Source: Levilactobacillus mulengensis (GTDB lineage: Bacteria > Bacillota > Bacilli > Lactobacillales > Lactobacillaceae). From it: a stretch of 64,000 bases of DNA. The position numbers and the translations under genes are program-made. This document shows, in pieces, positions 31,425-62,002 of this stretch. The notes under the pieces were generated by a model. That model had not been told where the DNA came from and did no database searches. It saw nothing but the letters and a program-made list of their open reading frames with translations. The stretch lies in the NCBI RefSeq assembly GCF_003946045.1, contig NZ_RHNW01000003.1:62001-126000 (forward strand), written 5' to 3'. Within the stretch, counting starts at the first letter, position 1. Each line of letters opens with the position of its first letter.

Positions 31425-31584
31425 GGGCGACAAAAAATGGGTCGGAACGCGGTGGGCAGGACGGCCGAAGCCTGAGGAGCGGTCTTCGACCTCGCTTTGA
31501 ACCTCATAGCCCGAGTTTCAAAGTCGCCATTTACTGAGCTGACCGCTCAGTAAATCCCACGGCTGAACCCATTTTTTGTCGCCC
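31425..31584 (+). repeat. Structured intergenic repeat, copy 1 (type A)
   Basis: Outer arms GGGCGACAAAAAATGGGT (31425-31442) and its exact complement 31567-31584. Inside are a TTTGAA/TTCAAA hairpin and ATTTACTGA/TCAGTAAAT (31530-31555). Weaker matching extends outward to about 31382 and 31620 (GTTTGGGGC / GCCCCAAAC). No ORF. With copy 2 it fills most of the 30974-32076 gap. Confidence 0.8.
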
Positions 31585-31675
31585 TCACGGCTGGAGTGGA
31601 GCGGGCCCCAAACACAATTTTGCCTCGGGTATTGATCGTGGGGGACTATTTTTCAGCGTAGGGAGCATTTCTGCC

Positions 31676-31841
31676 GGGCGGTGAAAATGGGTCGGAACGC
31701 TATGGGCGGACACCCGGAGCCAAAAGGCGGTCTCCGGGATGCTTTGAACCTCTGAGAAGCGAGTTTCAAAGACACCAATTCTCTAAGCGGCAAAGAGCGC
31801 CACTAAGAGAATTCCCATGGCTGAACCCATTTTCACCGCCC
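31676..31841 (+). repeat. Structured intergenic repeat, copy 2 (type A)
   Basis: Outer arms GGGCGGTGAAAATGGGT (31676-31692) and complement 31825-31841. Three inner stems: CCCGGAG/CTCCGGG, TTTGAA/TTCAAA and AATTCTCT/AGAGAATT (31777-31784 with 31806-31813). Bases differ from copy 1 and copies 4-5 while pairing is kept. Confidence 0.82.
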
Positions 31842-32076
31842 TCTCGGCTGGGATGTGTTAGGGCGCGTAACCCAAGTTCTGACATGGTGTGGTGGGTGGC
31901 TTTTCTGTGTAGGCCGAGTCCTAAGTAAGATTGCGTTTCGAGATTAGGCAATCTTGTGGAGCGCTGTCGGCCACTAATAAATATGACGTAACAAGGTGTG
32001 GTACAACTTGTAAGTCGTCCGGGCCAAAAATAGATGGTAAACGTGATTTAATAGAAGTAAATTCAATCGGAAGTCG

Positions 32077-32940
32077 GTGGAAATTTTGTCGGATGAAATT
32101 AATTTGCTGGTCACGTTAAACTCAGGGTACTTGGAACCGTTGAAGGTCATGCTGTACTCAGTACATGCCAATAATCCCGGAGAGCGGATGCATTTGTGGC
32201 TGGTGCATGCCAGTCTGACGCCTGATGAGGTGGCGTCTGTGCGGCAGCTGACCACGGCGTTTGGCTGGGAGCTGAGCGCCGAACGGGTGACGGCGGACTT
32301 CACGGCCGGGGTGCCCTTGATCAAACGCTATCCGCGGGAAATGTATTTCCGCCTCTTGAGTGGACAGATCTTGCCGAAATCAGTGAAGCGGGTCATCTAT
32401 TTAGACCCGGACTTGTTGGTGATTAACAATTTACGGCCACTATGGACGTTAGATTTAGCGGGTCACATGTTAGCGGCCGCCGTTCACCGTGGCGTGACCA
32501 ATCTCATGGACAGCGTCAATCAGTTGCGGCTGGGCACGACGACCAGTTATTTTAATTCGGGTGTGCTGGTCATTGATCTGGACCAAGCGCGGGCCAAGAT
32601 TAAGCTGAGCGACATCACGCAGACGATTGAGAAATATGAAAGCGAGCTAATTTTACCGGATCAGGATATCTTGAACTTTCTGTATGGGCCAGACATTTTG
32701 GAAATTTCTGAGGAAATCTGGAACTACGACACGCGCAAATACCTGATGTACCAGACGCGCAGCCTGAATCAGCATGAGATTCACTGGGTCATGGCCAATA
32801 CGGTGATTCTGCATTACTGCGGGACGCCCAAACCGTGGAATCCGGCCAGCGATGGCAAGTTTACCGGCCTATTTCTGAATTACCAGCAGCAGCTCCAACG
32901 GCTAAATGGTCGCCTCCGAGATGGTGAAAATGAGTCGTGA
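32077..32940 (+). CDS. Glycosyltransferase family 8
   Basis: 287 residues. Retaining GT8 fold (LgtC/general stress protein A group): NLLVTLNSGYLEPLKVMLYSV at the start, the metal-binding DxD in VIYLDPDLLVINNL near 110, YFNSGVLVIDLD near 168, LPDQDILNFLYG near 200 and HYCGTPKPWNP near 257. It likely adds glucose or galactose to a surface glycan or lipid. The start is uncertain: GTG 32077 with GGAAG three bases before it, or TTG 32086 after GGTGG. The last codons (GENES, stop) lie inside the left arm of a structured repeat, so the repeat's insertion probably rewrote the C-terminus. Confidence 0.85.
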   Translation: MEILSDEINLLVTLNSGYLEPLKVMLYSVHANNPGERMHLWLVHASLTPDEVASVRQLTTAFGWELSAERVTADFTAGVPLIKRYPREMYFRLLSGQILPKSVKRVIYLDPDLLVINNLRPLWTLDLAGHMLAAAVHRGVTNLMDSVNQLRLGTTTSYFNSGVLVIDLDQARAKIKLSDITQTIEKYESELILPDQDILNFLYGPDILEISEEIWNYDTRKYLMYQTRSLNQHEIHWVMANTVILHYCGTPKPWNPASDGKFTGLFLNYQQQLQRLNGRLRDGENES

Positions 32941-33121
32941 CGGCGGCTGTCCGTTCCCGGCGGCGGGTTCAACCTGCCCTGCTGTGGGGAACGCCTCCAG
33001 CCTGAGAAGCGGGCTTCCACCTCGCCTTGAAACCTCGCTACAAACCGCGAGTTTCCAAGGCCGTTCCGTGCTCTAAGCTGAGAAAATTACTCAGCTAAGA
33101 CCACCAACACAGCTGGTCAGG
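32923..33121 (+). repeat. Structured intergenic repeat, copy 3 (type B, right arm missing)
   Basis: Starts GGTGAAAATGAG inside the GT8 gene and keeps the type B inner stems (CCTTGAAAC with GTTTCCAAGG; CTAAGCTGAG with CTCAGCTAAG), but the right outer arm is absent after about 33120. A truncated copy. It occupies most of the 32941-33257 gap. Confidence 0.75.
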
Positions 33122-33163
33122 TTGCGTGAACAGAAGCTTTACGTGAATGTTGATTACTAACAG

Positions 33164-33204
33164 AAAGGGTCGTGATTTCCTAAAATTAGGGGTCACGACC
33201 CTTT
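33164..33204. terminator. Terminator downstream of GT8
   Basis: AAAGGGTCGTGA (33164-33175) pairs with TCACGACCCTTT (33193-33204), inner CCTAA/TTAGG. Confidence 0.75.
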
Positions 33205-33257
33205 GTTGTCTGGAAGAATGTCGTCCAATAGGGTATCAGCTTAATCGTAGCATTAAT

Positions 33258-33792
33258 GGAAAAACGGTTGATTTACGCGGGTGTTAACCGTTGATGTTTA
33301 TTGAAAAAGGATGGATTTTTTGATTTACATGGGCCTAGCCACAGCTGCTTATTGAAAAAGGATGGATTTTTTGATTTACATGGGCCTAGCCACAGCTGCT
33401 TATTGAAAAAGGATGGATTTTTTGATTTACATGGGCCTAGCCACAGCTGCTTATTGAAAAAGGATGGATTTTTTGATTTACATGGGCCTAGCCACAGCTG
33501 CTTATTGAAAAAGGATGGATTTTTTGATTTACATGGGCCTAGCCACAGCTGCTTATTGAAAAAGGATGGATTTTTTGATTTACATGGGTCTAGTCACAGC
33601 TGCTTATTGAAAAAAGGCGGTTTTTTTGATTTGTATGGGTCTAACCGTCGCTGTTTATTTAAAAAAGGCGTTTTTTTGATTTGTATGGGTCTAACCGTCG
33701 CTGTTTATTTAAAAATGACGGATTTTTTGATTTGTATGGGTCAAACCATGGCTGTTTATTGAAAAATTGGCGTTTTTTTGATTTGAAGCGCT
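33258..33792. repeat. 51-bp minisatellite, about ten units
   Basis: Units start near 33301, 33352, 33403, 33454, 33505, 33556, 33607, 33658 and 33708; the first five full units are identical, later ones diverge, one lost a base, and a degenerate unit precedes 33301. Each unit holds GATGGATTTTTTGATTTACA and GGGCCTAGCC. A frame is open across it (17 residues per unit), but it lacks a start, signal or balanced composition, so I read it as non-coding. The last unit runs into a cre-like TTGAAGCGCTTACA (33781-33796 area). Confidence 0.85.
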
Positions 33793-33933
33793 TACACGCG
33801 GAAGATAATCAAAAAAATAGGTCGTAATTCCATTTGATTAGGAATCGCGACCGATAACTATTTGGAGGAAGACAGATTAAGTAATGAGGACAGCGGCACA
33901 AGTACATTGACCGCCAACGATGAAAAGGCGCAA

Positions 33934-34160
33934 CCGAAAAACTAGTGTTAGCGTAGCTGGCGGGCGACCGGTGCGGAAGCCTGTGTTCGTGGCGTTTGTC
34001 GACGTTCTGGGTCGGCTTACACCACTGGACGTGCTGGAGACTCTGTACTTTGAGGCTCTAGCGCGAGCGCGAAGACCGTTTCTTAGGCTTCGGGCGGTCC
34101 CCATAGGCTGGGAGCACCGGTCGTCCGCCGGCGTAGCGCATTACGACACGTGTTTTTCGG
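33934..34160 (-). repeat. Structured intergenic repeat, diverged copy (reverse)
   Basis: Outer arms CCGAAAAAC (33934-33942) with GTTTTTCGG (34152-34160); second arms CGACCGGTGC (33965-33974) with GCACCGGTCG (34114-34123). Read on the minus strand, its interior (TATGGGGACCG, AGCCTAAGAA, CTTCGCGCTCGCG) aligns with type B (TGTGGGGACCG, AGCCTGAGAA, CTTCCACCTCGCC). One arm covers the last codons and stop of the Feo-associated gene. It accounts for the 33793-34140 gap, along with a GGTCG/CGACC hairpin at 33821-33853. Confidence 0.65.
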
Positions 34161-34311
34161 CTTGGTGCTTTTTCAGTTGTTGTTTGGCGGGGCAATCGTA
34201 CTCGCACGCCGGGCAGCTGCCCTGGCTGGACTTTTTCAAATGCCGGTACAGCACGAACCCGGCGCCACCAATGATGGCAATGACGATAACGCTATTAATC
34301 AGGATTGACAT
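34141..34311 (-). CDS. FeoB-associated Cys-rich membrane protein
   Basis: 56 residues: MSILINSVIVIAIIGGAGFV is a membrane helix, then a basic stretch and the cysteines C33, C36 and C40 in GSCPACEYDCPAK, ending KHVS. Short one-pass proteins with this layout follow feoB in many Firmicutes and are thought to help assemble or regulate the iron channel. AAAGGAG lies 9 bases before the ATG, which is 16 bases after the feoB stop, so it is in the feo operon. Its 3' end forms part of a repeat arm. Confidence 0.82.
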   Translation of the reverse strand: MSILINSVIVIAIIGGAGFVLYRHLKKSSQGSCPACEYDCPAKQQLKKHQAEKHVS

Positions 34312-34326
34312 GGCTAAGCGCTCCTT

Positions 34327-36315
34327 TTAAATGAACAGCGACCCGACCTGGAAGATGATCATCGCGACCAGGTAGGCAATTACCGTGTTGGAGACCACGG
34401 AATAAACGGCCCACTTGGTCGAATTGGTTTCGGCCTTGATTGTCGCCAAGGTGGCAAAGCACGGTGCATAGATCAGGATGAAGACCAGGACGGCGTAGGC
34501 AGACAACGGGGTGAACAGGGAACTGAAGGTGGCAATCAAACCAGTTTGACCACTCAAATGGAAGAGCACAATCATGCTGGAACTGATGACTTCCTTGGCC
34601 AGAATCCCGGTCATCAGGGCACTGATCGTTTGCCACGAGGTGATGCCGATTGGGGCAAAGGCGGGCAGGACGAAGCGGCCAATCATGGCGGAGAAACTCT
34701 GGTCGATGTTGGTCACCACGCCGGCCGGTCCCAAGTTGGACAACAGCCAGATGAGCACGGTGCCGCCAAAGATGACGGTGCCGGCCTTGCGGATGAAGCC
34801 CTTGCCCTTTTCCCAGGTGCCCATGGCGATGATGTCCGGCCGGGGCATGTGGTACTTCGGCAGCTCAATAATGAAGACGGAATTTTCTTTAACTTTAAAC
34901 ACCCACTGATAAATCTTGGCCATGAATAGCGCCAGCGCAATCCCCAGGAAATAGAGGGAGAGCACGATCAGCGCCTGGTTCCGGTCGAAGAAGGCGGCGA
35001 CGAACAGCCCATAGATGGGGAGTCGGGCCGAACAACTCATAAATGGTGAAATCAGCGTGGTAACCAGCCGTTCCTTGGGTTGCTCAATCGTGCGCGCGGC
35101 CATGATCCCCGTGACGTTACAGCCGAAGCCGATGATCAGCGGAATGAAGGCCTTACCGTTGAGCCCAATCAGTTGCATCAGCCGGTCGGTCACTAGCGCG
35201 GCGCGGGCCATGTAGCCAGAATCTTCCAGAATGGAAATGCACGCGAACAACACGAAAATCTGGGGAATGAAGCTGAGCACCCCACCAACGCCGGCGATGA
35301 TACCGTCAACGATTAGGGATTTCAGAAACGGCATCGCCCCAACGCTGGTCAGAAAGTGACTGGCGGTCGCGGACAGTGGCCCGGAAATGAAGGCATCCAT
35401 CACGTCCGACAGCGGTGTCCCAATCCAGTCGAAGGACAGCTTGAACATTAACAGGAATATACCCACGAAAATGGGGAGTCCCAGCAGGGGATGGGTGACG
35501 ATGCGGTCAATCTTCGCCGTCAAATTGGCGTTGGAGACCTCGTGTAGATACTTGGTCGTGGCCGTCAGCGTTTCATCAATGAAGGCCAGTCGCGTTTGAA
35601 AGATTTGTTCCTCAAAGTCCTGTTTGTCGTAAGCGTCCTGCTGCGTCAGGAGGGGTTGCAATTGGTGCTTACTGGCGTAGCGGCGGACGATTTGGTTACG
35701 GTTCATGAACTGAATCGCCAGCCAGTTGGCAAAGGTCGGCGTCAATTGATCGTCGGCAACCAGTTGCTGCGTGGCCGTGGCGATGGCGTCCTGAACCGTA
35801 GCGGGATAGGCCAGGTGCAGGGGCGCGGTCGTTTCCGGCGGCGTGGCCAACAGTTCTTGGCGGAGTTGGTCCAGCCCCGATTTCTTCCGAGCATTGGTCG
35901 CGCGGACCTGACAGCCCAAGCGTTTAGCCAGCTCGTCGAAGTCGTAGGTGACTCCGTTTGCCTTTAAATCGTCGATCATATTTAAGGCGAGCACCACCGG
36001 GCGGCCGAATTCCAACAGCTCAATCGAGAGCAACAGGTTGCGTTTCAGCTGGCTGGCGTTGGTGACGTTTAAAATCATGTCGGGTGAGTCGTTTAGCAAG
36101 TAGTTGCAGGCGACGGCCTCGTCCTTGGTGATTGGCGTGAGGGAATAGATGCCGGGGAGGTCGACCACCACCATTTCAGAGTGGCGAATCTTCCCCATCT
36201 TCTTGTCAACGGTGACCCCTTCCCAATTACCAACGTAGGCATATTTATCGGTCAACTCGTTAAATAGCGTGGTCTTGCCAGTATTTGGATTTCCTAAAAG
36301 GGCAACGGTTGTCAT
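34327..36315 (-). CDS. feoB: Ferrous iron transporter FeoB
   Basis: 662 residues. GTP-driven uptake of Fe2+ across the cell membrane. N-terminal G domain: G1 GNPNTGKTTLFNEL at 8-21, G2 region GVTVDKKMGK, G3 VVDLPGIYSL near 52, G4 NMIDDL near 112. A helical GDI domain follows, then the permease part with gate helices (LGLPIFVGIFLLMFKL near 275, GFGCNVTGIMAART near 400, SCSARLPIYGLF near 430) and the final cytoplasmic end. Length is typical. Second gene after feoA, one base apart, and followed by the Cys-rich partner. Confidence 0.95.
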   Translation of the reverse strand: MTTVALLGNPNTGKTTLFNELTDKYAYVGNWEGVTVDKKMGKIRHSEMVVVDLPGIYSLTPITKDEAVACNYLLNDSPDMILNVTNASQLKRNLLLSIELLEFGRPVVLALNMIDDLKANGVTYDFDELAKRLGCQVRATNARKKSGLDQLRQELLATPPETTAPLHLAYPATVQDAIATATQQLVADDQLTPTFANWLAIQFMNRNQIVRRYASKHQLQPLLTQQDAYDKQDFEEQIFQTRLAFIDETLTATTKYLHEVSNANLTAKIDRIVTHPLLGLPIFVGIFLLMFKLSFDWIGTPLSDVMDAFISGPLSATASHFLTSVGAMPFLKSLIVDGIIAGVGGVLSFIPQIFVLFACISILEDSGYMARAALVTDRLMQLIGLNGKAFIPLIIGFGCNVTGIMAARTIEQPKERLVTTLISPFMSCSARLPIYGLFVAAFFDRNQALIVLSLYFLGIALALFMAKIYQWVFKVKENSVFIIELPKYHMPRPDIIAMGTWEKGKGFIRKAGTVIFGGTVLIWLLSNLGPAGVVTNIDQSFSAMIGRFVLPAFAPIGITSWQTISALMTGILAKEVISSSMIVLFHLSGQTGLIATFSSLFTPLSAYAVLVFILIYAPCFATLATIKAETNSTKWAVYSVVSNTVIAYLVAMIIFQVGSLFI

Positions 36316-36316
36316 G

Positions 36317-36544
36317 CTAGTGTCCCCCTAAGAGTGCTTTGAAAACAACGTAGCGAATCCCAACTTTCTGCTGATCGAATTCAACGATGACGGGGCCGTG
36401 AAACGGATATTGCCGGAGCACGGTCAGCTGGCTGCCAGGGTGAATGCCGAGGTTATGTAGTCGGTGAGCGGTCTGGCCATCAAGGGTCGCCATCTGTTCG
36501 ACAGTTACGATTGGATAGGCTGATTCTGAATAACGGAGTTGCAT
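36317..36544 (-). CDS. feoA: FeoA, ferrous iron transport accessory protein
   Basis: 75 residues from ATG 36544 (MQLRYSESAYPIV); ATG 36550 is also possible because AAAGG lies between optimum distances for both. SH3-like FeoA fold: HRLHNLGIHPGSQLTVLRQYP and a terminal VGIRYVVFKALLGG strand pair. FeoA binds FeoB and is needed for Fe2+ uptake. First gene of the operon; no certain promoter is seen upstream, where two structured repeats sit. Confidence 0.88.
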   Translation of the reverse strand: MQLRYSESAYPIVTVEQMATLDGQTAHRLHNLGIHPGSQLTVLRQYPFHGPVIVEFDQQKVGIRYVVFKALLGGH

Positions 36545-36609
36545 TATCATCAGGCCTTTCAAATTAAGTCTTTAAACGGTTTTTGCTGGTTAAACTTTGA
36601 TTCGCCTCC

Positions 36610-36779
36610 GGCAGGGTGAAAAATGGCTCGGAACGCGGTGGGCGGACACCCAGAGCCAAAGGGCGGTCTCTGGGATGCTTTGAACCTCTGAGGAGACGAG
36701 TTTCAAAGACACCAATGTTCTAACCCGCAAAGGACGCGGCTAAGAACATTCCCACGGCTGAAGCCATTTTCACCCTGCC
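36610..36779 (+). repeat. Structured intergenic repeat, copy 4 (type A)
   Basis: Outer arms GGCAGGGTGAAAAATGGCT (36610-36628) and 36762-36779, one extra A. Inner stems CCCAGAG/CTCTGGG (36649-36655 with 36668-36674), TTTGAA/TTCAAA, AATGTTCT/AGAACATT (36714-36721 with 36743-36750). Extra arms GCTGGTTAA (36585-36593) and TTAACCAGC (36796-36804) extend it. Confidence 0.85.
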
Positions 36780-36845
36780 TGCGGCTAACACAGGCTTAAC
36801 CAGCACCGGGTTTGCGTGTCATTTGATTACCGCTGGTTTCTGGTT

Positions 36846-37015
36846 AGCCTCGGTGAAGATTGGCTCGGAACGCGGTGGGCGGACACCCAGAGCCAAAGGG
36901 CGGTCTCTGGGATGCTTTGAACCTCTGAGGAGCGAGTTTCAAAGACACCAATGTTCTAACCCGCAAGGTACGCGGCTAAGAACATTCCCACGGCTGAAGC
37001 CATTTTCACCCTGCC
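36846..37015 (+). repeat. Structured intergenic repeat, copy 5 (type A)
   Basis: Nearly identical to copy 4 through the core; the left outer arm is degraded (GGTGAAGATTGGCT) while the right arm is intact. Outer CTGGTTA (36840-36846) and TTAACCAGC (37032-37040) recur. A recent tandem duplicate of copy 4. Confidence 0.85.
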
Positions 37016-37356
37016 TGCGGCTAACACGGATTTAACCAGCACCGGTTTTATACATCTATCAGCAATCTATGCTTGATAGTCATTAGCTGGTTATGCGGTA
37101 CTGGATTTCCAGTTCTGCCGCAATTATATAGGTGAGACAGGTGTAATCAGCAAGCTTATGTTTTACATCATTCAGGTAAGCAGCTGCGCGCGAGATTAAG
37201 TAATGGCTAAGCCGCCATCAAATTATGTGATCTAAGCGCACAGCCGGAATAATAGTTAAGTGATAGAAGAAGGAACACAGCCAACCAATGGAATGGTCAG
37301 CTACCCATCAATTGCAGGAACCGCCTTGGTGACGGGCCAAACTAGTCTTAGCCGCA

Positions 37357-37604
37357 GGGCTGGTGAAAATGGGCGCCGTGTGAGTGACCAGAGGTGGACC
37401 AAGATGACCAGCTGTGTCGGTGGTCTTAGCTGAGTGATTTTCTCAGCTTAGAGCACGGGACGACCTTGGAAACTCGCGGTTTGTAGCGAGGTTTCAAGGC
37501 GAGGTGGAAGCCCGCTTCTCAGGCTGGAGCCGGTCCCCACAGCAGGGCGTCTTGAGGCCACCGCCGGGAACGCTCAGCACGGACCGGCCCATTTTCACCG
37601 GCCC
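37357..37604 (-). repeat. Structured intergenic repeat, copy 6 (type B, reverse)
   Basis: Outer arms GGGCTGGTGAAAATGGGC (37357-37374) and GCCCATTTTCACCGGCCC (37587-37604), one G-U. Inner stems CTCAGCTTAGAGC region near 37430-37452 and CTTGGAAACTCGCG with CGAGGTTTCAAGG near 37474-37498. Opposite orientation to its neighbours. The remaining 37016-37906 DNA holds cre-like TGTAAGCACTTTCA (37682-37695) and the dyad at 37716. Confidence 0.82.
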
Positions 37605-37715
37605 GGAGGCGCTGTCAAAGACTAAAGGTTTGACCCAGACACCAAAAGCAGGTTAATTCATTTGATGGGTCTAGCTTACCATGTAAGCACTTTCACATAT
37701 ATTAGGGAAATGCCT

Positions 37716-37735
37716 AATATTATTCCAGGAATATT
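37716..37735. promoter_or_regulatory. Dyad operator candidate upstream of suf operon
   Basis: AATATTATTCCAGGAATATT, near-perfect inverted repeat, next to TATAAT (37741-37746). About 170 bases before sufC. A second possible promoter is TTGCAC (37801) with CATAAT (37826), spacing 19. Could bind an iron or redox regulator. Confidence 0.4.
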
Positions 37736-45619: not shown

Positions 45620-46265
45620 AGTCTTAGTAGCGGACGACCACGCAATCGTGCGGTCGGGCCTGAAAGCCATCGTGGATGATCAGCCGGATTACCAAGTCGT
45701 CGCGGAGGCGGCCAACGGCAATGACACGTTTGTGCGCGCTGGTCAGGGCGATATTGATATGATTATCATGGATTTGAGCATGCCGCCGGGTGAAAGTGGC
45801 CTAGTGACGACCAAGAGGATTCACAGCCAGTACCCGAAAATCTGGATTTTAATTTTGTCGATGCACGGCGAAGAGGATTACGTGGACCAGGCCATTAAGA
45901 ACGGCGCGTCCGGCTACGTCCTGAAGAGTTCGCCGGATAGTGAAATCATCAATGCCATCACGACCATCGTGAACGGCCGGCATTACGTGGATGAGAACGT
46001 GATCCTGCTGAAGTCCGACATCAAGAATATCCTCACGGACGTGGATAAGACCAATCTGTGGGGCCATAGTCCGTTGTCCAAACGGGAGCGGGAAGTCATG
46101 CCGCTGGTGGCGCTGGGGTACTCCAACAAGGAAGTGGCGGCTAAGCTGAATATCACGACCAAGACGGTGGAGGCGCATAAGGCTAGTATTATGCGGAAAT
46201 TGGATTTGACGTCGCACGTCGAGCTAGTCCGCTACGCCATCCACCACAAGTTAATCGAGTTCTAA
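45612..46265 (+). CDS. NarL/LuxR-type response regulator (NreC-like)
   Basis: 217 residues from ATG 45612 (MYKVLVADDHAIVRSG), AAGGGGAG 9 bases upstream. Receiver domain with DD at 8-9, phospho-Asp in MIIMDLSMPPGES near 56 and Lys in VLKSSPDSE near 104; C-terminal LuxR helix-turn-helix (LSKREREVMPLVALGYSNKEVA). It responds to the kinase before it. No nitrate reductase genes are nearby, so targets are unknown; the dyad at 44463 suggests autoregulation. A structured repeat begins 21 bases after the stop. Confidence 0.92.
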   Translation: MYKVLVADDHAIVRSGLKAIVDDQPDYQVVAEAANGNDTFVRAGQGDIDMIIMDLSMPPGESGLVTTKRIHSQYPKIWILILSMHGEEDYVDQAIKNGASGYVLKSSPDSEIINAITTIVNGRHYVDENVILLKSDIKNILTDVDKTNLWGHSPLSKREREVMPLVALGYSNKEVAAKLNITTKTVEAHKASIMRKLDLTSHVELVRYAIHHKLIEF

Positions 46266-46286
46266 ACGGGTGTTTCCGGCGCCTCC

Positions 46287-46525
46287 GGGCTGGTGAAAAC
46301 TGGTCTGGTCGTGTCCGTTCCCGGCGGCGCGCTCAAGGCGCCCTGCTGTGGGGTCGGTTCCAGCCGAAGAGCGGGCTTCCACCTCAACTTTGAGCCTGAG
46401 GAGCGGTCTCAAAGGTTGTCCCATGCTCTAAGCTGAGTGGGAAACCTCAGCTAAGACCATCGACACAGCCTGGCACCTTGGCGCGCCTCTGGTCACTCCC
46501 ACGACCGGCCCAGTTTTCCCAGCCC
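46287..46525 (+). repeat. Structured intergenic repeat, copy 7 (type B)
   Basis: Outer arms GGGCTGGTGAAAACTGG (46287-46303) and CCAGTTTTCCCAGCCC (46510-46525), one bulge; note CTGG/CCAG here where others have TGGG/CCCA. Inner CTTTGAG/CTCAAAG and CTAAGCTGAG/CTCAGCTAAG. Fills the gap before the terminator at 46606. Confidence 0.85.
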
Positions 46526-46605
46526 TGCGGCTGACACGGGTTTGGAACTGAAACTTGTGGTTGTGGGTTGATAGAGTGGTGTTCTAAAATAACTATCTAT
46601 AGTAA

Positions 46606-47588: not shown

Positions 47589-47605
47589 CGAGATTAACTG
47601 AAAAA

Positions 47606-47690
47606 GACACTAGGGGTGCCAGTCGGCTGAGATGGACACGTGCCAATCCCTTTGAACCTGTTGAGCTAAGACTCGCGTAGGAAAGTGGTC
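47606..47690 (+). promoter_or_regulatory. TPP riboswitch (THI element)
   Basis: Conserved blocks in order: AGGGGTGCC, GGCTGAGAT, CCCTTTGAACCTG and GACTCGCGTAGGAAAGTGG; P1 pairs GAC-AC with GTGGTC. It binds thiamine pyrophosphate and turns off the gene downstream. A terminator at 47713-47743 (AGCCGT with ACGGGGCT, then six T) sits between it and the gene, so control is by termination. Confidence 0.93.
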
Positions 47691-47772
47691 GGTCTGCTGG
47701 AAATGCCAGGGGAGCCGTCGTCGTGGGGGAACGGGGCTTTTTTGGTGAATTTGCAGTAGGAGTGTGACGAGA

Positions 47773-51019: not shown

Positions 51020-51062
51020 CTTGAATTGGCGGGGTAAACTTTGGTCGTTGGACTTCGCCTCC

Positions 51063-51319
51063 GGGACGGTGAAAATGGGCCGTGACGCTGTGGGCGCTGT
51101 CCGTTCCCGCCGGCGGGTTCAAAACGCCCTGCTATGGGGCCGGTTCCAGCCTGAGTGGCGGGCTTCCACCTCGACTTTGAGCCTGGGGACCGGTCTCAAA
51201 GGTCGTCCCGTGGACTAAGCTGAGAAATTCACTCAGCTAAGACCACCGACACAGCTGGGCATTTTGCCCCGCCTCTGGTCACTAACATTGCTCACAGCTT
51301 GGCTCATTTTTACCATCCC
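51063..51319 (+). repeat. Structured intergenic repeat, copy 8 (type B)
   Basis: Outer arms GGGACGGTGAAAATGGGCC (51063-51081) and GGCTCATTTTTACCATCCC (51301-51319), few mismatches. Inner GACTTTGAG/CTCAAAGGTC and CTAAGCTGAG/CTCAGCTAAG. Covers most of the 51020-51435 gap. Confidence 0.83.
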
Positions 51320-51434
51320 TGCGGCTGACACGGGTTTAGCCTGCCATCGAGTTGGTCTGGCTAATTTGTGCTACGGGGTGTTGCTAGTTATCCATCGGCG
51401 TGTTGAGCGTCTTTGACTTACAATAGAAGCGTTA

Positions 51435-55488: not shown

Positions 55489-55544
55489 CGTTTGGGATGA
55501 GATATTGAAGGTATAGGTTATCACATGGTGAAAAATAGCAGTCA

Positions 55545-55571: not shown

Positions 55572-55578
55572 CGTTCTC

Positions 55579-56091: not shown

Positions 56092-56102
56092 TGGGCACCG
56101 CC

Positions 56103-56597
56103 TTATTTGCTAAGAATCGATGCAATAATCGGTTGTACCTCGGCCAGGGACTTGCCCTTGAGCATCCCACAGACGATGCCCGTTTGCTTGGCGTAGTGGT
56201 CGTAGCCACGGTCGGTCATGGGGATGGTGGTGGTTTGATCTAGATCAGCGAAGGCGAAGTCACAGTTGCTCATCCGAGCCGCAAAGGCAGTGGGCGTGAC
56301 GCCGCATACATCCGCACACACCCGGATAAAGGCATCGAGGTCCGCCGTGATATTAATGGCTTCATATTGCACGCCGGAGAGGTCCGTGGCTACCCGCTTC
56401 AGGTCCGCAAAGTTAAACGCTTGGGGTCCGACCATGACTAAGGCTGCGGCCAGAAACTCGTGGTCGTAGGACCAGCGCCGGTGTTCATAATTGTAGATGG
56501 CCCGTTTGACTAATCGAATAGGAGACACGGTACTGTTGGGGTGCTTGGCTTGAAATTTAGCTAATAGGTCTAAAATGATTTCGTTAAAGTTGTTCAT
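56103..56597 (-). CDS. Hypothetical protein, tandem paralogue A
   Basis: 164 residues, begins MNNFNEIILDLLAKFQ. GAGGTAA lies about 8 bases before the ATG. Shares the W-(S/T)-(Y/F)-D-x-(E/D)-FL motif with its partner, and a C-x(3)-C-G pair (VCADVCGV) that in the partner is C-x(3)-AG. The dyad TTCAAC/GTTGAA upstream (56632-56649) could be its operator. Not recognised. Confidence 0.68.
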   Translation of the reverse strand: MNNFNEIILDLLAKFQAKHPNSTVSPIRLVKRAIYNYEHRRWSYDHEFLAAALVMVGPQAFNFADLKRVATDLSGVQYEAINITADLDAFIRVCADVCGVTPTAFAARMSNCDFAFADLDQTTTIPMTDRGYDHYAKQTGIVCGMLKGKSLAEVQPIIASILSK

Positions 56598-56631
56598 TAT
56601 TATTACCTCAATTTGTTTAAAATTTTAAATT

Positions 56632-56649
56632 TTCAACAGCGCCGTTGAA
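56632..56649. promoter_or_regulatory. Dyad operator candidate
   Basis: TTCAAC-AGCGCC-GTTGAA, extended by AATT on both sides, 35 bases before the paralogue pair. The rest of the 56598-56860 stretch is AT-rich with no gene. Confidence 0.4.
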
Positions 56650-56859
56650 TTGATTCCTTGTTAACAAAATTAAGGTTATCACGGAAGATAGAGACTTGCA
56701 AGCTTGTAAGTACCGTTATACCGGCGTTTTGGAGGCATCCAAGTGCAATTTAATCCAAGGCAATAGGTGCTTAAAATCGATCAATGTCATTTTTGGGAGG
56801 AGTTAACCTCAATTTAAAAAAAAGATAAAATTTTTTAAATTCGCCCTGAAAAGCAAAAA

Positions 56860-56880
56860 ATCCACCCAAATTCGGTGGAT
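56860..56880 (-). terminator. Terminator of WYL gene
   Basis: ATCCACC / GGTGGAT, followed by six T on the minus strand. Confidence 0.75.
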
Positions 56881-56888
56881 GACGACAA

Positions 56889-57854
56889 TTATTCTGTAGG
56901 TAGTTGCCCCAATTGCACCTGACATTCAGTGCGGATGGCAGCAATCAATTCGGTTGGCGCCGTTTGAAGCGTGGCTGCGTGACCCAGGTAAAGAAACCAG
57001 CGGGCAAAGTCCTGGAGTTGTTCTGACGAGGCTGGGTCCAGGTAGCATTCCAATACGGCCGTCTGGTGGAACTGGGCACGGTACTGAAGCGGCGCTGTGG
57101 GGTGGGGATGCTGTTTAAACTGTTGAATGGCGTCGGTCGTTAATTTCAAGCGAACGTTGGGTTGCGGCCGGGCCGCTTTGATGGCGTCGGCGATGGCGTC
57201 CGGGTCCAGCGCCTGTTCCTGAGCGACCGGGGTAACAGCCACGATGTCCGTGATTTTTAGTTCATAGAAGCGGCTAGCGTTCAGGTCCCAGGCGTCGACG
57301 TACCAGATGGCCTGACGATTGTAGACGTGGCGAACCCAAACGGTGTGGGTGGTCGTCGCCAGTTTGAGCTGGAGCTGGCGGCTGGTCAGGCAGTCATTTA
57401 GTAGTGTACGCAGCATGGGTGGCGCAAAGTCGGTCAGCTCGGTCAGTTTGGTGTTGGCCGGATTGGTGTGACTGAAGACTAGCAGTTCTTGTAGCGTCAG
57501 AAGGTCATCCTGTTGGGTCTTTGAGGCGATGGCCACGAGTTTCTCCGTCAAGGTATTACGGTTTTGTAGGTAGGGAAGCTGGGTATTTAGCGTCGCCAGA
57601 AAACTGACAAATAGGGCCTTCAGTTCTTCGTTGTTGAACTGGACGGCGGGCAACAGGGTATTCTGGAGAACGGCGTAACCGCCATCGCGGCCCACGCTCG
57701 ACGTCAGGGGCATCCCCAGCTCCTGAATATTTTCAAGATCACGAATGACCGTGCTCCGCGATACCTGAAAGTGGCTCATCAATTCTCGAATCGTAAAAAA
57801 TTGGCGATTGTTGATGTACCGCATCATGGTATTGACCCGTTCCGTTTTTGTCAT
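56889..57854 (-). CDS. YafY-like WYL-domain regulator
   Basis: 321 residues from ATG 57854 (MTKTERVNTMMRYIN), GGAG 6 bases upstream. HTH_11 winged helix (about 2-58; FTIRELMSHFQVSRSTVIRDLENI), WYL domain (about 140-205; VWVRHVYNRQAIWYVDAWDLN, FYELKITDIVAV) and a WCX end (VRLKLTTDAI, WFLYLGHAATLQ). It is divergent from a GyrI-like gene, a common pair: the regulator controls the ligand-binding protein. The dyad GTTTCTGAAAC (57876-57886) lies between them. Confidence 0.88.
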   Translation of the reverse strand: MTKTERVNTMMRYINNRQFFTIRELMSHFQVSRSTVIRDLENIQELGMPLTSSVGRDGGYAVLQNTLLPAVQFNNEELKALFVSFLATLNTQLPYLQNRNTLTEKLVAIASKTQQDDLLTLQELLVFSHTNPANTKLTELTDFAPPMLRTLLNDCLTSRQLQLKLATTTHTVWVRHVYNRQAIWYVDAWDLNASRFYELKITDIVAVTPVAQEQALDPDAIADAIKAARPQPNVRLKLTTDAIQQFKQHPHPTAPLQYRAQFHQTAVLECYLDPASSEQLQDFARWFLYLGHAATLQTAPTELIAAIRTECQVQLGQLPTE

Positions 57855-57875
57855 GATTTTCTCCAAATAGTGTCA

Positions 57876-57902
57876 GTTTCTGAAACCATTAGTGATTATA
57901 CT
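57876..57902 (+). promoter_or_regulatory. Control region between WYL regulator and GyrI-like gene
   Basis: Dyad GTTTCTGAAAC at 57876-57886 and a TATACT -10 at 57897-57902 with no strong -35, as expected for an activated or repressed promoter. Confidence 0.4.
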
Positions 57903-57933
57903 GAGTCTATCATTTAAAGGAGGCCACCACAAT

Positions 57934-58404
57934 ATGGCAAATTACACGATTGAAACGAAACCCGCATTCACCGTTTTAGGCATCGATACGGTCCTGACCG
58001 GCAACTTCCCCGAAATGGGTCAGCAGAAGGCGAACTTCTGGCAAAAGATCAACGCGGACCACGCGCTGGCAAAACTGGACGGCATCAACGACTACCCCTT
58101 CGCCGTTAACGAAGCCATCAACGGTGAATTCCATTACTACGCCGGTCGGCAAGTCACGACGGCTGCGACGGCCGCAGCGGGGCAACGGTTGATTGAATTT
58201 CCCGCTGGCAAATACCTGGTCATTACCGGCACGGCGGCGGACCAAATGGGGCTGTACAACGCGCTCGAAGGTCCCGCATTTGGCGAAATCTTACCCCAAT
58301 TAACTGACTACGCCTACGTGGGTGGTCCCAACACGTCTTACGTAACGGGGAGCGATGACGCCGGGGTTCACGGCGAAATGCTGGTGCCCTTAGTCGAAAA
58401 ATAG
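57934..58404 (+). CDS. GyrI-like effector-binding domain protein
   Basis: 156 residues from ATG 57934 (MANYTIETKPAFTVLG), AAAGGAGG about 10 bases upstream. Single SOUL/GyrI (AraC E.bind) fold: ETKPAFTVLGIDTVLTGNF, FHYYAGRQV, IEFPAGKYLVITGTAADQMG, and Y-VGGPNTSY. These proteins bind small aromatic or cationic molecules and may sequester or hydrolyse them. Divergent from the WYL regulator. Ends in its own terminator. Confidence 0.82.
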   Translation: MANYTIETKPAFTVLGIDTVLTGNFPEMGQQKANFWQKINADHALAKLDGINDYPFAVNEAINGEFHYYAGRQVTTAATAAAGQRLIEFPAGKYLVITGTAADQMGLYNALEGPAFGEILPQLTDYAYVGGPNTSYVTGSDDAGVHGEMLVPLVEK

Positions 58405-58411
58405 ATTCGTG

Positions 58412-58442
58412 AATCGTCAGTGTAGGTGGCTGACGATTTTTT
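58412..58442 (+). terminator. Terminator
   Basis: ATCGTCAG (58413-58420) pairs with CTGACGAT (58430-58437), T-run. Confidence 0.8.
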
Positions 58443-58475
58443 GTATAATGGAAATAACAACGAGGAGGGGTTTCC

Positions 58476-59102
58476 ATGAAACACGAATGGCGCAAAGCTG
58501 AGAAGGACTGGTACTTATCCAAGCAACCGGCGCTGTTAACGCTGCCAGCACTGAATTTTATCACGATTGAAGGCCAGGGTTATCCCAATCAGCCGGACTT
58601 CGGTGAGCACGTCGCCGCCCTGTATCCGGTGGCCTATCAGCTACGAATGGCGCTGAAACGCGGTGAACTGGGTGAACCCTACGAGTATACGGTTTACCCG
58701 CTGGAGGGCGTCTGGACGACGACTGATGGCTCGCGGGGGGCCGACCTGAACAAGGCGGCCTTGAAATACAAAATCATGTTGCGTCAGCCAGACCGGTTGA
58801 CGGCCACGGATTTTGCTCAGGCCTTGGCTGCCGTTCAAGCGAAGAAGACCAATCCCTACTTTGACCACTTAAACTGGGAAACTTACGCGGAGGGACAGGT
58901 GCTCCAGACCATCCATCACGGGCCATTTGATGACGAGCCGGCCACGTTTGCCCAGCTCCAGACGGTCTTGACCGAGCAGAACTTGCAGGTCATCCCCACC
59001 ATGGGCGACTACTGGCACCGCGAAATTTACCTGACGGATGCCCGCCGGACCGCTCCGGAAAGGGCGAAAACCCTGCTACGGTATCGGGTTCAACCGAAGT
59101 AA
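58476..59102 (+). CDS. GyrI-like small-molecule-binding protein (long form)
   Basis: 208 residues, GAGGAGGGG 9 bases before the ATG. MKHEWRKAEKDWYLSKQPALLTLPALNFITIEGQGYPNQPDF-type opening is usual for the long GyrI-like group (a YdeE-like relative), with LYPVAYQLRMALKRG near 47 and a conserved GPFDDEPATFAQLQTVL near 147. TATAAT at 58444-58449 lies upstream. Probably binds or hydrolyses cyclic small molecules. It follows the shorter GyrI-like gene but has its own promoter after a terminator. Confidence 0.85.
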   Translation: MKHEWRKAEKDWYLSKQPALLTLPALNFITIEGQGYPNQPDFGEHVAALYPVAYQLRMALKRGELGEPYEYTVYPLEGVWTTTDGSRGADLNKAALKYKIMLRQPDRLTATDFAQALAAVQAKKTNPYFDHLNWETYAEGQVLQTIHHGPFDDEPATFAQLQTVLTEQNLQVIPTMGDYWHREIYLTDARRTAPERAKTLLRYRVQPK

Positions 59103-59106
59103 ATCA

Positions 59107-59142
59107 AAAAGTCGCCTGGCAACTTGTCGGACGACTTTTTTG
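59107..59142. terminator. Bidirectional terminator
   Basis: AAAAGTCG (59107-59115 region) with CGACTTTT (59133-59140), inner weak pairing, T-run. Confidence 0.65.
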
Positions 59143-59153
59143 ATGCGATTAGA

Positions 59154-59810
59154 TTACGGGAGCCACTGTAGGACGCTGTCCAGAGTGGTCACCGTGTGGG
59201 TTGGTCGAGCGGCGGCTGTGGGTTTTGCGTTTTCCCGGTTGACCCAAATCGACCGCCAGCCAAGCTGATCAGCGGGGATGATGTCACTGGCATAGCCTTG
59301 CGCGATGTGCCAGTGATTCTCGGGGGTGAAGCCGTAATGCTTGCCCACGGCATCGAAGAAGGTGTGATCTGGTTTGTAGGCGTGCACGTCCTCGGCAGTC
59401 CAAATGTCGAAGGGCACCTGGAGGCTGTCGGCATTGGCAGGGATGATATCCCAGCTGGAGTTGGACATCATAATCAGGTGGTAGCCGCGCTCACGTAGCG
59501 TTTTGAGCGTGGCAATGACTTCGGGAAACGGTGTCAGGGCACGGTGCGCCATTAAGACTTCGGGATAGTAGCGCTCGAAACCATGTTTGAGGCCAAATTG
59601 TTCGTCTAGGTGGAGTAAATTGTTGCGGGTCAGCAAATCATAGTCCAGGTAGGGATGCATGTTGTTGCGGTCGCCCTGATAGGTGATGAACCGTTGCCGG
59701 GCTAATTTGGCATCAACGCCCAGCTGAAGCGCGGCCCGGACGATTTCAGCGTAGGTGCCTTCCTCCCGTAGCAGGGTGCCGTAACAGTCAAAGGTTAGAA
59801 ATTTTGTCAT
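59154..59810 (-). CDS. HAD-family hydrolase (haloacid dehalogenase type II-like)
   Basis: 218 residues from ATG 59810 (MTKFLTFDCYGTLLREE), AAGGAAG 8 bases upstream. HAD motifs: I, FDCYGTLL with nucleophile D8; II, IMMSNSSWDI near 113; III, Lys in DVHAYKPDH near 143; IV, GYASDIIPADQLGWRS near 170. Cys in place of Asp at the second position of motif I is usual for type II dehalogenases. Substrate unknown. A terminator-like hairpin (59835-59861) in its leader suggests attenuation. Confidence 0.85.
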   Translation of the reverse strand: MTKFLTFDCYGTLLREEGTYAEIVRAALQLGVDAKLARQRFITYQGDRNNMHPYLDYDLLTRNNLLHLDEQFGLKHGFERYYPEVLMAHRALTPFPEVIATLKTLRERGYHLIMMSNSSWDIIPANADSLQVPFDIWTAEDVHAYKPDHTFFDAVGKHYGFTPENHWHIAQGYASDIIPADQLGWRSIWVNRENAKPTAAARPTHTVTTLDSVLQWLP

Positions 59811-59834
59811 CGGAATAACTTCCTTAGTCAAACT

Positions 59835-59861
59835 AAAAAACCACCCGCAAAGGTGGCTTTT
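59835..59861 (-). terminator. Terminator-like hairpin in the HAD leader
   Basis: Minus-strand AAAAGCCACC-TTTGCG-GGTGGTTTTTT, ending about 14 bases before the ribosome site region. Could be an attenuator or the end of an upstream transcript. Confidence 0.55.
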
Positions 59862-59937
59862 CGTAGCTGTAATGCACAATCAATCTGTTTTTAGTGGTGA
59901 CCAAGAGGGGGTAACCAGGTGGCCACTGAAATTTTCT

Positions 59938-60029
59938 GATCGGTTAGACGGTTAATCCTAACCAATCGCAGCTGTCAGTCCGTAACGTGGTTCACAAGCT
60001 GGATAGCGGGGGGCTGTCTGGTTGTGAAC
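59938..60029. repeat. Two hairpins in structured gap
   Basis: GATCGGTTAG (59938-59947) with CTAACCAATC (59958-59967), and GTTCACAA (59990-59997) with TTGTGAAC (60022-60029). Part of the 59811-60257 gap, which has no gene. Confidence 0.55.
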
Positions 60030-60145
60030 GTTGTTGGCGGTTACTGGGGTGGTGTGTCGCAGAGGGACTGGCCTCTTTGTTGGACCCTGGAACCGGTGGA
60101 CTGACCGATGCATTTTAGATTCCGGAGACGTGCGGCCTCTGAAAC

Positions 60146-60256
60146 GTGCTCCGTGGGGCAGACAGTTCCGCTTAACACCGTAACGAAAATCCCCCAAGTG
60201 CGGGGGCATTCCCGTTACGCCGTTAATGCTCGCTGTCTAAGCGCCCCACTCCGCAC
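60146..60256. repeat. Long 111-base interrupted hairpin after adh
   Basis: Nested pairs from the outside in: GTGCTCCGTGGGGC (60146-60159) with GCCCCACTCCGCAC (60243-60256), GACAG with CTGTC, TTAAC with GTTAA, CGTAACG with CGTTACG and CCCCC with GGGGG, with small internal loops. It starts one base after the adh stop on the minus strand. Not a usual terminator; no T-run. Confidence 0.7.
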
Positions 60257-60257
60257 T

Positions 60258-61430
60258 CTATTTTGCGTCGTAAGCTGCTTGGAAAATCTTGATGATATCT
60301 TCTTTAGTCCCTACACGAGGGTTAGAGAAGGCGTTCCCATCCTTCAAGGCGTTTTCAGCCATCAGTTCAAAGTCTTCTGGCTTTGCACCGATTTCCTTGA
60401 TGGACTTAGGAATACCAACGTCTTCTGACATCTGCTTCATGGCCTTGATGGATAATTCAGCAGCGTCACGCGTTGATAAGCCTTCAGTGTTTTCACCCAT
60501 GATTTCAGCTAATTCAGCGAAACGTTCTGGGCAAGCAATGATGTTGTATTCTTCAACGTAAGGCAGGAGCAAAGCACAGCAAACACCATGTGGGGCGTCG
60601 TATTGACCACCTAATTGGTGAGCCATGGCGTGAACGTAACCTAAGTTAGCGTTGTTGAAGGCCATCCCGGCTAACATTTCAGCTTCGACCATCTTGGTCC
60701 GAGCTTCGAGGTTGTGGCCGTTAGCAACGGCTTCACGTAAGGAAGTTTCAATCAACTTGATAGCTTCGATACATTGTGAGTCGGTGATTGGGTTGTGGTC
60801 AACGGAAACGTAGGGTTCGATGGATTGAACGAAAGCGTCCATCCCAGTAGCGGCGGTTAAGCCCTTAGGAACGTCCAACATCAAAGTCGGGTCGTTGTAG
60901 GAAACCAACGGAATGTTCCGCCATGAAACAACAACGAACTTCAAGTGGGTTTCTTCGTTCGTGATAACGGCGTGACGAGTCAATTCAGAACCCGTCCCAG
61001 CAGTCGTGTTAACGGCAATCAGTGGTGGCAAAGCCTTGTCGAGCGTTTCGATCCCAGCTAACTTGGTGATGTCATCACCGTTAGTCAAGATAATGCCGGC
61101 ACCTTTACCAGTATCATGAGCAGAACCCCCACCAACAGTGATGATGGAGTCAGCGCCTGAATCCAAGTAAAGTTTCTTAACTTCTTTGATGTTGCGAATC
61201 TTAGGGTTCGGTTCAACGTTGTTGTACACAACGTAGTCAACACCAGCAGCCTTTAAGGAATTCAAGGTCTGTTCAACCGCACCGTTTTCCATTCCTTCAA
61301 GGAACTTATCCGTTACGATGACGGGCTTCTTCATCCCTAACATCTTTGCACGGTCACCAATCTTGCTAATTACGCCAGGGCCAAAGAAATTGACACTGGG
61401 CATAAGAAAGTCATAACTACGTTCAGCCAT
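60258..61430 (-). CDS. dhaT: Iron-containing alcohol dehydrogenase (1,3-propanediol dehydrogenase-like)
   Basis: 390 residues. Group III alcohol dehydrogenase: SVNFFGPGVISKIGDRAK, the NAD site TVGGGSAHDTGKGAGI near 97-112, TTAGTGSELTRHAVI near 140, the metal Asp in TGMDAFVQSIEPYVS near 195, and the metal histidines in HAMAHQLGGQYDAPHG near 265-280. It reduces 3-hydroxypropanal or small aldehydes with NADH in the cytoplasm and regenerates NAD+, useful in heterofermentation. The symbol is by similarity; lactaldehyde reductase is possible. Strong promoter at 61489 and a cre at 61606. Confidence 0.88.
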   Translation of the reverse strand: MAERSYDFLMPSVNFFGPGVISKIGDRAKMLGMKKPVIVTDKFLEGMENGAVEQTLNSLKAAGVDYVVYNNVEPNPKIRNIKEVKKLYLDSGADSIITVGGGSAHDTGKGAGIILTNGDDITKLAGIETLDKALPPLIAVNTTAGTGSELTRHAVITNEETHLKFVVVSWRNIPLVSYNDPTLMLDVPKGLTAATGMDAFVQSIEPYVSVDHNPITDSQCIEAIKLIETSLREAVANGHNLEARTKMVEAEMLAGMAFNNANLGYVHAMAHQLGGQYDAPHGVCCALLLPYVEEYNIIACPERFAELAEIMGENTEGLSTRDAAELSIKAMKQMSEDVGIPKSIKEIGAKPEDFELMAENALKDGNAFSNPRVGTKEDIIKIFQAAYDAK

Positions 61431-61488
61431 TATACAAATGCCTTCTTTCGGAAGTTTTGAAAATCATTGGTACCAATTTCACAAAGCA

Positions 61489-61517
61489 ATTATAACTAAA
61501 AAAATTACAGTTTGCAA
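61489..61517 (-). promoter_or_regulatory. adh promoter
   Basis: Minus-strand TTGCAA (61517-61512) and TATAAT (61494-61489), 17 bases apart. About 60 bases before the ATG. Confidence 0.8.
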
Positions 61518-61605
61518 CTGCTTTCGGGTAAAAGTTTGTTAGTTGTCCGAGAAAACCAGGGCGTATCACCGATTTGGCGGTGTTCGTTCTGACCAAAGAA
61601 AATTT

Positions 61606-61619
61606 ATTTAGCGCTTACA
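61606..61619 (-). promoter_or_regulatory. cre-like site upstream of adh promoter
   Basis: ATTTAGCGCTTACA fits the CcpA consensus at 12 of 14 positions. It lies 90 bases upstream of the -35, a place typical of CcpA activation. Confidence 0.5.
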
Positions 61620-61762
61620 AAAGTGTGAATGTATTAATGAAAAGTTAAACAAATTGTTCTCATTTCGCTGTGAATCTCGGGGGAGACAACTGCTTGCGTC
61701 AGGTTTCACCGGGTCGTGAACCCCCTAACGCATTTTCCCTGGGAGCGGGTTAAAAGGCATCT

Positions 61763-62002
61763 CAGGGATGAGAAAATTATACCGCGGCTGATCGTTCCCG
61801 ACGGCAGGTTCAAGGTGCCCTGCTGTGGGGTCGGTTCCAGACTAAAGGGCAGTCTTCCACCTCGACTTTGAGCCGGAGTGCGGTCTCAAAGGTCGACCCG
61901 TGCTCTAAGCTGAGAATAAAGCGCTCAGCTTAGAGCACCGACACAGCTGTTCACCTTGACCTGCCTCTGGTCACTAACATGGTGGTGTGATTTTTCATCT
62001 TT
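61763..62002 (+). repeat. Structured intergenic repeat, copy 9 (type B, diverged)
   Basis: Left AGGGATGAGAAAATTATACC and right GGTGGTGTGATTTTTCATCTT pair imperfectly. Inner TGCTCTAAGCTGAG with CTCAGCTTAGAGCA (61901-61938) is a perfect 14-bp stem, and GACTTTGAG/CTCAAAGGTC is kept. It lies in the 61431-62279 gap. Confidence 0.78.

Follow-up and report, generated by a model that had tools for sequence, protein, structure and literature searches.

Structured repeats in the window

The window, the whole stretch of 64,000 nucleotides of Levilactobacillus mulengensis that was analysed (C23:62001-126000), contains exactly ten copies of a folded intergenic repeat, as found with profiles of its types A and B at an E value of 1e-4. 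A sequence-only reading of this DNA had listed ten copies, all of which are real and are the sole profile matches in the window at this threshold, and the stem pairs that it quoted are present in the copies. Instead of the one common architecture proposed there, we find two homologous types of about 175 nt (A) and about 275 nt (B), here called half-elements and marked > or < by direction; four A and four B copies lie on the plus strand, and one B and one divergent A on the minus strand. The GGTGAAAATGG core described as shared by the arms is exact in three of the ten copies (31674, 37339 and 51053), and this part of the description does not hold for the other seven.

The leftmost intergenic region with copies contains two type A half-elements (>) on the plus strand, the first (31422..31593) recognised by profile matches and folds and the second (31674..31849), which has the exact core, by a profile match; the site of the second has three A copies in L. 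wangkuiensis, one in L. lanxiensis and none in CD0817. To the right is a >..< pair, also found by profile matches, in which the left partner is a type B half-element (32909..33124, plus strand) that has lost its 3′ arm, and the right partner is the divergent type A half-element (33982..34154, minus strand), placed at 33934 in the earlier reading. The left site is occupied at loci L126 and L127 by a type A interior with the 5′ arm unchanged, and the interior of the right partner is 0.98 and 0.97 identical to its orthologs in two species. A >>< region follows, with profile matches to a type A half-element (36608..36789, plus strand), whose site is empty in L129 and L130, its tandem type A partner (36851..37025, plus strand), and a closing type B half-element (37339..37614, minus strand) with the exact core, whose site in L126 and L128 is occupied by a type A interior. 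The remaining three profile matches are type B half-elements (>) on the plus strand: one (46279..46543) starts about 14 nt past an ORF that ends with its stop at 46265, one (51053..51338) lies 34 nt past the end of a predicted gene, has the exact core and was the query for the genus-wide search, and one (61761..62020) has a degenerate outer arm. The sites at 51053 and 61761 are empty in CD0817.

There are 120 copies in 722 kb (23% of this genome), making up 3.3% of the sampled DNA with a GC content of 58%, and extrapolation gives some 500 dispersed copies genome-wide. Type B was detected in 26 of the 34 further genomes from the genus and in none of 43 from outside it, and no match was found in plasmids searched with A, B and the larger unit described below, or in phages searched with B and the unit; carriage by plasmids or phages was accordingly rejected.

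Order and conservation of sites

The copies had been said to occur in both orientations, and both strands are indeed used, although a strict order was overlooked: all 30 multi-copy intergenic regions of this genome have the order >..<, never <>, as do all 22 of those on contigs from three further species. Of 48 regions with a single copy, 41 are shorter on the 5′ side. Attribution of the > < order to a rule of insertion at gene edges was given up when recent copies in L. suantsaiihabitans pointed to an order belonging to the unit itself.

Sites are shared extensively, with 48 of 50 common to L. lanxiensis and 13 of 13 to L. wangkuiensis, and two of 49 L. lanxiensis sites are absent from this genome; sites are kept over about 8% divergence. 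The interior occupying a shared site nevertheless differs between A and B in nine of 38 ortholog pairs (two short pairs were dropped from 40, and the 38 include the same site compared with two species), and type and number of copies differ between close species. Natural empty sites, which the sequence-only reading had proposed to compare, are present in relatives: CD0817 has no profile match at 22 of 30 compared regions, with about eight clean short gaps. Single copies inserted relative to CD0817 include about 115–150 nt that the profile does not cover, most of it 3′ of the match, and many copies lie at non-homologous sites. Two ideas about the adjoining sequences were rejected. Centres are not shared cargo, with ten similar pairs among 91, mostly local tandem copies or element edges; and 3′ tails are not copies of other loci, with 12 non-local matches for 69 tails, of which six hit a single stretch next to a B copy, four link two neighbouring sites and two lie elsewhere.

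Larger units in relatives

In relatives, the halves are directly observed to lie inside larger units, most often of 633–640 nt, with inverted ends CTGAAGGTTGAAAG. Taking as a unit any stretch of 200–800 nt bounded by these ends in the fetched loci of relatives gives 42 units, one of them counted twice through an alternative start. A target duplication of 7–9 bp flanks 25 of the 42 (231–724 nt in length), compared to 4 of 1,722 mismatched flank pairs, and the other 17 have no recognisable duplication. Where two halves are recognised, they point inward (> <) in 23 of 25 units; type B itself is the top-scoring match in just two of the 42. Counts of the end motif exceed a reversed-motif control in many genomes, for example 101 versus 1 in G030, 100 versus 1 in G017 and 86 versus 0 in G033.

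In this genome the CTGAAGGTTGAAAG ends are not recognisable around the copies. CTGAAGG ends with up to two mismatches number 6 in the 722 kb versus 5 in the control and are not enriched, three of the six being within 400 nt of a copy; with up to one mismatch, there are 13 in the whole genome versus 0. We note that the link between these copies and the units rests on the homology of the halves and their order, and that the unenriched ends here, and a lone B half that may have inserted alone, speak against the unit reading; so do the rarity of B itself as best match in the units, the units with no recognisable duplication, the extra sequence of copies inserted relative to CD0817, the missing autonomous partner and the lack of plasmid and phage matches. 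This lone half, with about 330 nt, is found in L. lanxiensis and absent from this genome. It is flanked by AATTGA-type repeats, no CTGAAGG end lies closer than 200 nt, and it looks like either the insertion of one half bearing different ends or a precise loss in this genome.

No autonomous partner or transposase was found in the fetched loci of relatives. The ORFs listed for nine end pairs encode at most 118 amino acids, with the exception of an IS3-family element nested in the unit at L375; this locus was for that reason rejected as an autonomous partner, as was L393, where two host genes lie between separate ends, these two being the longest candidates. The inverted-end motif offers a handle on the missing transposase.

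Covariation of the stems

Covariation is the main evidence on which new structured RNAs are called, and that reported for these stems is real. In an alignment of 29 type A copies of this genome (30 loci were fetched and L026 left out), 97.4% of 1,497 cells are paired versus 86.6% when shuffled, two-sided changes are observed at 27 of 52 pairs versus 15.6, and double changes occupy 165 cells versus 44.6; none of 500 shuffles was as high as the observed alignment, and slid controls are 37–54% paired. The alignment of 26 type B copies (30 loci, with L040, L042, L046 and L051 left out) has two-sided changes at 16 of 59 pairs in the raw count. Wobble pairs are few despite this very strong covariation. 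Between orthologs, stems diverge by 4.0% versus 10.8% for loops. Hairpins maintained by template switching, described for RNA genes in the available part of PMC8794818, would likewise yield matched changes on both arms without RNA selection, whereas the nine matched changes in 28 ortholog comparisons here are all isolated pairs, with none of the multi-base blocks expected from template switching.

It is unlikely, in our view, that the repeats are structured RNAs, i.e. 3′ or 5′ UTR elements selected for mRNA folding and spread by their usefulness in stability or termination. The covariation and the slower divergence of stems would suit such a role, as would the 54 copies beside a same-strand upstream gene, at a median of 32 nt from the gene end, and the several copies that sit before a terminator. 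However, if selection acted on a single RNA strand, G-U would be expected to outnumber A-C, and single changes between orthologs comprise 98 G-T and 104 A-C. With these two in balance, and with G-U in excess in like-for-like pairs of RNase P RNA, the covariation does not resemble that from ordinary RNA selection, and the proposed selection on RNA structure is not well supported. In like-for-like pairs, G-U versus A-C is 48 versus 7 for the RNase P RNA control, compared to 21 versus 54 (A) and 35 versus 71 (B) for the copies; for pairs chosen on the plus strand the copies have 60 versus 55 (A) and 86 versus 83 (B), and RNase P on its true strand 535 versus 7. Pairs chosen on the minus strand do lean towards G-U, with 118 versus 21 (A) and 96 versus 40 (B), a larger excess than for RNase P on the wrong strand (100 versus 56), and it is because of this lean that we leave some room for an RNA role. 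The lean, which is seen among paralogs, persists in stop-facing copies (42 versus 28), where the minus strand is antisense to the gene, a point against a role in mRNA. There is also no Rfam match to the copies, either across the whole window at the gathering score or from 31 to 38 kb at E values up to 10, and a known Rfam RNA was rejected. Taken together, the covariation looks more like DNA-level upkeep than like a working RNA.

A role of the DNA itself in the host, as a cruciform or a protein-bound boundary, would account for the maintenance of pairing while G-T and A-C changes balance between orthologs, for the conserved sites and for the position of copies at gene edges; it seems quite improbable to us in view of the many CD0817 regions with no match or a clean gap, and of the variation in type and number between close species, which suits neutral or selfish DNA. 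Amplification of REP/BIME-like palindromes by a RAYT-type (Y1) transposase, as for REPINs, is highly improbable. High copy number, extragenic location and inverted pairs with variable spacers are as expected of such a system, but Y1 genes are present in 23 of 35 genomes and unrelated to copy number, the units have inverted ends and 7–9 bp duplications, and each half is about 170–290 nt long; with no PF01797 match in the high-copy genome G012 (408 first-look candidates), this system was rejected.

A probable MITE-like transposon family

We consider it probable that the repeats belong, as structured parts, to a MITE-like transposon family of Levilactobacillus that is old and non-autonomous, and that in this genome they are eroded and interior-exchanged, with stem pairing kept mainly at the DNA level. 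The copies are read as eroded parts of such a transposon because the units of relatives carry inverted ends, duplications and inward-facing halves, and the >..< order fits this reading. The sequence-only reading is partly supported overall: a mobile non-coding element and real covariation are supported, and the larger unit with its inverted ends, the >..< order and the interior exchange at fixed sites go beyond it.

The typical intact unit in related species consists of an inverted end, an inward A half, a centre, an inward R (B-like) half and a second inverted end; there are also units with one half. Units insert between genes with a 7–9 bp duplication, presumably by means of a transposase acting in trans. 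The copies in this genome would descend from such units, most being old, with ends and centres decayed or different, many sites retaining one half and some having gained tandem copies locally. Dispersed copies may have exchanged sequence, most likely by gene conversion via the shared arms, so that interiors were replaced, A for B, leaving site, orientation and outer arms unchanged. Pairing would be maintained mainly at the DNA level, either at a hairpin stage of the DNA or through palindrome repair by template switching.

We speculate further, and with some doubt, that strong covariation can arise without RNA selection, with palindrome-correcting DNA synthesis and gene conversion keeping stems paired as they drift and swapping interiors between fixed sites. 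If so, this transposon-like family, with its very strong covariation, scarcity of wobble pairs and balance of G-T and A-C changes among orthologs, would be a natural case in which covariation misleads as evidence of RNA function. The sampled sequence alone contains more than one hundred palindromes whose sites can be followed through three closely related species, which offers material for testing template switching versus selection; the genus, one of food bacteria, is used in industry, and the family occupies 3.3% of the DNA sampled here. No published description of this Levilactobacillus repeat family was found.

The bcr1 repeat of the Bacillus cereus group reportedly has mobile-element traits, to go by the title of a paper cited in PMC2267715. 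It is alike in being a structured intergenic repeat with such traits, and differs in genus and sequence; the available part of PMC2267715 gives a length of 167 nt and lists 31 copies in B. anthracis. The BOX, RUP and SPRITE repeats of Streptococcus pneumoniae are also folded, intergenic, numerous and regarded as MITE-like, BOX being modular and novel insertions now slow, but their sequence and module plan are unlike, and the available text has no inward order, no interior swapping and no mention of 'gene conversion' (PMC3049150). Similar in form are MITEs such as the Correia element, ERIC, QMITE and Chunjie, which according to the available part of PMC10969869 are short, gene-less, intergenic and highly folded, with inverted ends and target duplications, and decay into end-less fragments. 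MITEs are typically AT-rich (PMC10969869), whereas the family described here, for which no autonomous partner was found in the fetched loci, is GC-rich, has two unlike multi-branched halves facing inward, and has exchanged interiors between its sites.

Two types of folded intergenic repeat

The ten repeat copies picked out by the sequence-only reading are all real, and profile searches with both types yield no others in the window. The single architecture proposed for them resolves into two homologous types, A and B, although a long outer stem around several hairpins is indeed predicted for most copies; the GGTGAAAATGG core ascribed to them is exact in three of the ten and not in the remainder. 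Type A is about 175 nt long, with four copies in the plus orientation and one divergent copy in the minus orientation in the window, and type B is about 275 nt long, with four plus copies and one minus copy. The type B copy at 32909 lacks its 3′ arm, and a 51-bp tandem repeat array (33193–33778) is located in the centre of the inward-facing pair 32909/33982. Complementary flanks (31378–31397 with 31605–31624) lie outside the 31422 copy and show matched differences across three species, as if the stem extended beyond the repeat itself. At gathering score, Rfam yields a single match in the window, a TPP riboswitch on the plus strand (47602–47700). Within the parts of the literature covered by our search, no published description of the family was found, and the nearest known kinds are MITEs, BOX and bcr1.

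Abundance and distribution

Within 722,490 sampled bases (23% of the 3.11 Mb L. mulengensis genome) there are 120 copies, totalling 23,861 nt or 3.3% of the sample, which extrapolates to about 500 copies in the whole genome; a first-look search gave 156 A and 383 B candidates, which are not counts. In the sample the G+C content is 58% in the copies, 53% in predicted genes and 43% in copy-free intergenic DNA. A type B query matches 26 of 34 other Levilactobacillus genomes and none of 43 genomes outside the genus, and no matches were found in plasmids searched with A, B and a unit (see below), or in phages searched with B and a unit.

Genes were predicted with a simple codon-usage script, and 118 of the 120 copies were assigned to 78 intergenic regions. 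Wherever such a region has more than one copy (30 regions), the order is >...< and never <>; contigs from three other species show the same inward order in 22 of 22. Among 48 regions with a single copy, 41 have the shorter flank on the 5′ side; the 46279 copy begins about 14 nt past the stop of an ORF, and thus at least one of the seven exceptions reflects a missed gene.

A mobile unit in related genomes

The best 40 of 204 candidates in L. suantsaiihabitans are full-length and 89–100% identical, and their alignment with flanks included reveals units of about 640 nt bounded by inverted ends, CTGAAGGTTGAAAG. Loci fetched from seven genomes hold 42 units of 200–800 nt, 12 of them 633–640 nt, a tally that is no census and in which one unit was entered twice via an alternative start. 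A 7–9 bp duplication flanks 25 of the 42, compared with 4 of 1,722 mismatched flank pairs. Two halves are recognised in 25 units, and in 23 of these they face inward (12 A>R<, 10 R>A< and 1 A>B<, where R is the B-like half); 15 other units have one half and two have none. The end motif CTGAAGG is frequent in many Levilactobacillus genomes, and no enrichment of it was found in the sampled part of the L. mulengensis genome, where the ends are either decayed or different. No autonomous partner of the units was found in the fetched loci: one candidate locus (L375, genome G015) contains an IS3-family element with rve and HTH_Tnp domains (L375:923–3061) nested within a unit, and in another (L393) the ends are separate and enclose two host genes. 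Y1 transposases were also rejected as the mover, as their occurrence does not follow copy number.

Site occupancy and interior exchange

L. wangkuiensis and L. lanxiensis both have a FeoB protein 99% identical to that of L. mulengensis, and aligned DNA is 92–93% identical. Comparable site clusters are occupied at 48 of 50 in L. lanxiensis and 13 of 13 in L. wangkuiensis; in the reverse comparison L. mulengensis has a copy at 47 of 49 L. lanxiensis sites. One of the two L. lanxiensis-only sites is within a rearranged coding stretch, and the other is a lone B half (161379–161592 of loci L201–L215, joined and reversed) inside an insertion of about 330 nt, with AATTGA-type repeats on both sides. 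No CTGAAGG end was found near it, and it is possibly a recent single-half insertion without such ends.

Ortholog pairs share their orientation in 39 of 40 cases, and the one that does not is a short palindromic fragment. Of 38 one-to-one pairs, 9 differ in type, A for B, while their arms remain similar (medians 0.89 and 0.81, against 0.92 and 0.93 in same-type pairs); such interior swaps are seen, for example, at the 32909 and 37339 copies. In 16 of 18 cases where the types agree, the interior that matches best in L. lanxiensis is the orthologous one. Same-orientation tandem copies have been gained and lost between species.

In strain CD0817, 22 of the 30 regions that can be compared have no profile match, and about eight of these are clean short gaps; at five further regions a copy is present in CD0817 alone. 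The extra DNA at the clean sites exceeds copy length (a single copy plus 115–150 nt), and at one a 655-nt >..< stretch corresponds to a gap of about 30 nt that runs from an apparent stop codon to the next start. CD0817 is labelled L. brevis yet is its own species representative, and the label may be outdated; large aligned blocks share 71–87% DNA identity with the window. In the intergenic gap at C23:140809–141177 an A copy precedes the terminator in L. mulengensis, a complete unit lies past it in L. suantsaiihabitans, and CD0817 has neither, so these are apparently independent insertions.

Covariation and the upkeep of pairing

Covariation in the stems, claimed from sequence alone, is borne out. 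In an alignment of 29 type A copies of the L. mulengensis genome (from 30 fetched loci), 97.4% of 1,497 cells are paired compared to 86.6% in shuffles, which are inflated by related rows, and 27 of 52 pairs have two-sided changes compared to 15.6 when shuffled; none of 500 shuffles equals the observed value on any of five measures. A slid control of the same alignment agrees, with 37–54% paired. In type B (26 copies from 30 loci) two-sided changes occur at 16 of 59 pairs, the shuffle control covering type A.

Selection on the folding of one RNA strand would be expected to tolerate G-U but not A-C. Single changes between orthologs (56 directed comparisons, every pair counted both ways) comprise 98 G-T, 104 A-C and 99 others. 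Among paralogs, with pairs predicted from both strands, there are 21 G-T and 54 A-C in 2,254 cells for A, and 35 and 71 in 2,381 for B, whereas RNase P RNA from 30 genomes under the same treatment gives 48 and 7. When pairs are picked on the plus strand, G-U and A-C are nearly even (60 vs 55 for A, 86 vs 83 for B), but picking on the minus strand gives a G-U excess there (118 vs 21 and 96 vs 40), so there is a minus-strand lean that has to be taken seriously; in the RNase P control the true strand gives 535 vs 7 and the wrong one 100 vs 56. The lean is present in stop-facing (42 vs 28) and start-facing (83 vs 28) copies.

We favour the interpretation that pairing is kept by upkeep at the DNA level rather than by selection on one RNA strand. 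Such upkeep could involve a hairpin step during transposition, gene conversion among copies, or palindrome correction. Orthologous stems diverge by 4.0% and loops by 10.8%, and 21 directed two-sided changes are observed where about 2.3 would arise under independence. The two-sided changes between orthologs are isolated pairs, nine in 28 comparisons, and multi-base template-switch blocks are therefore unsupported.
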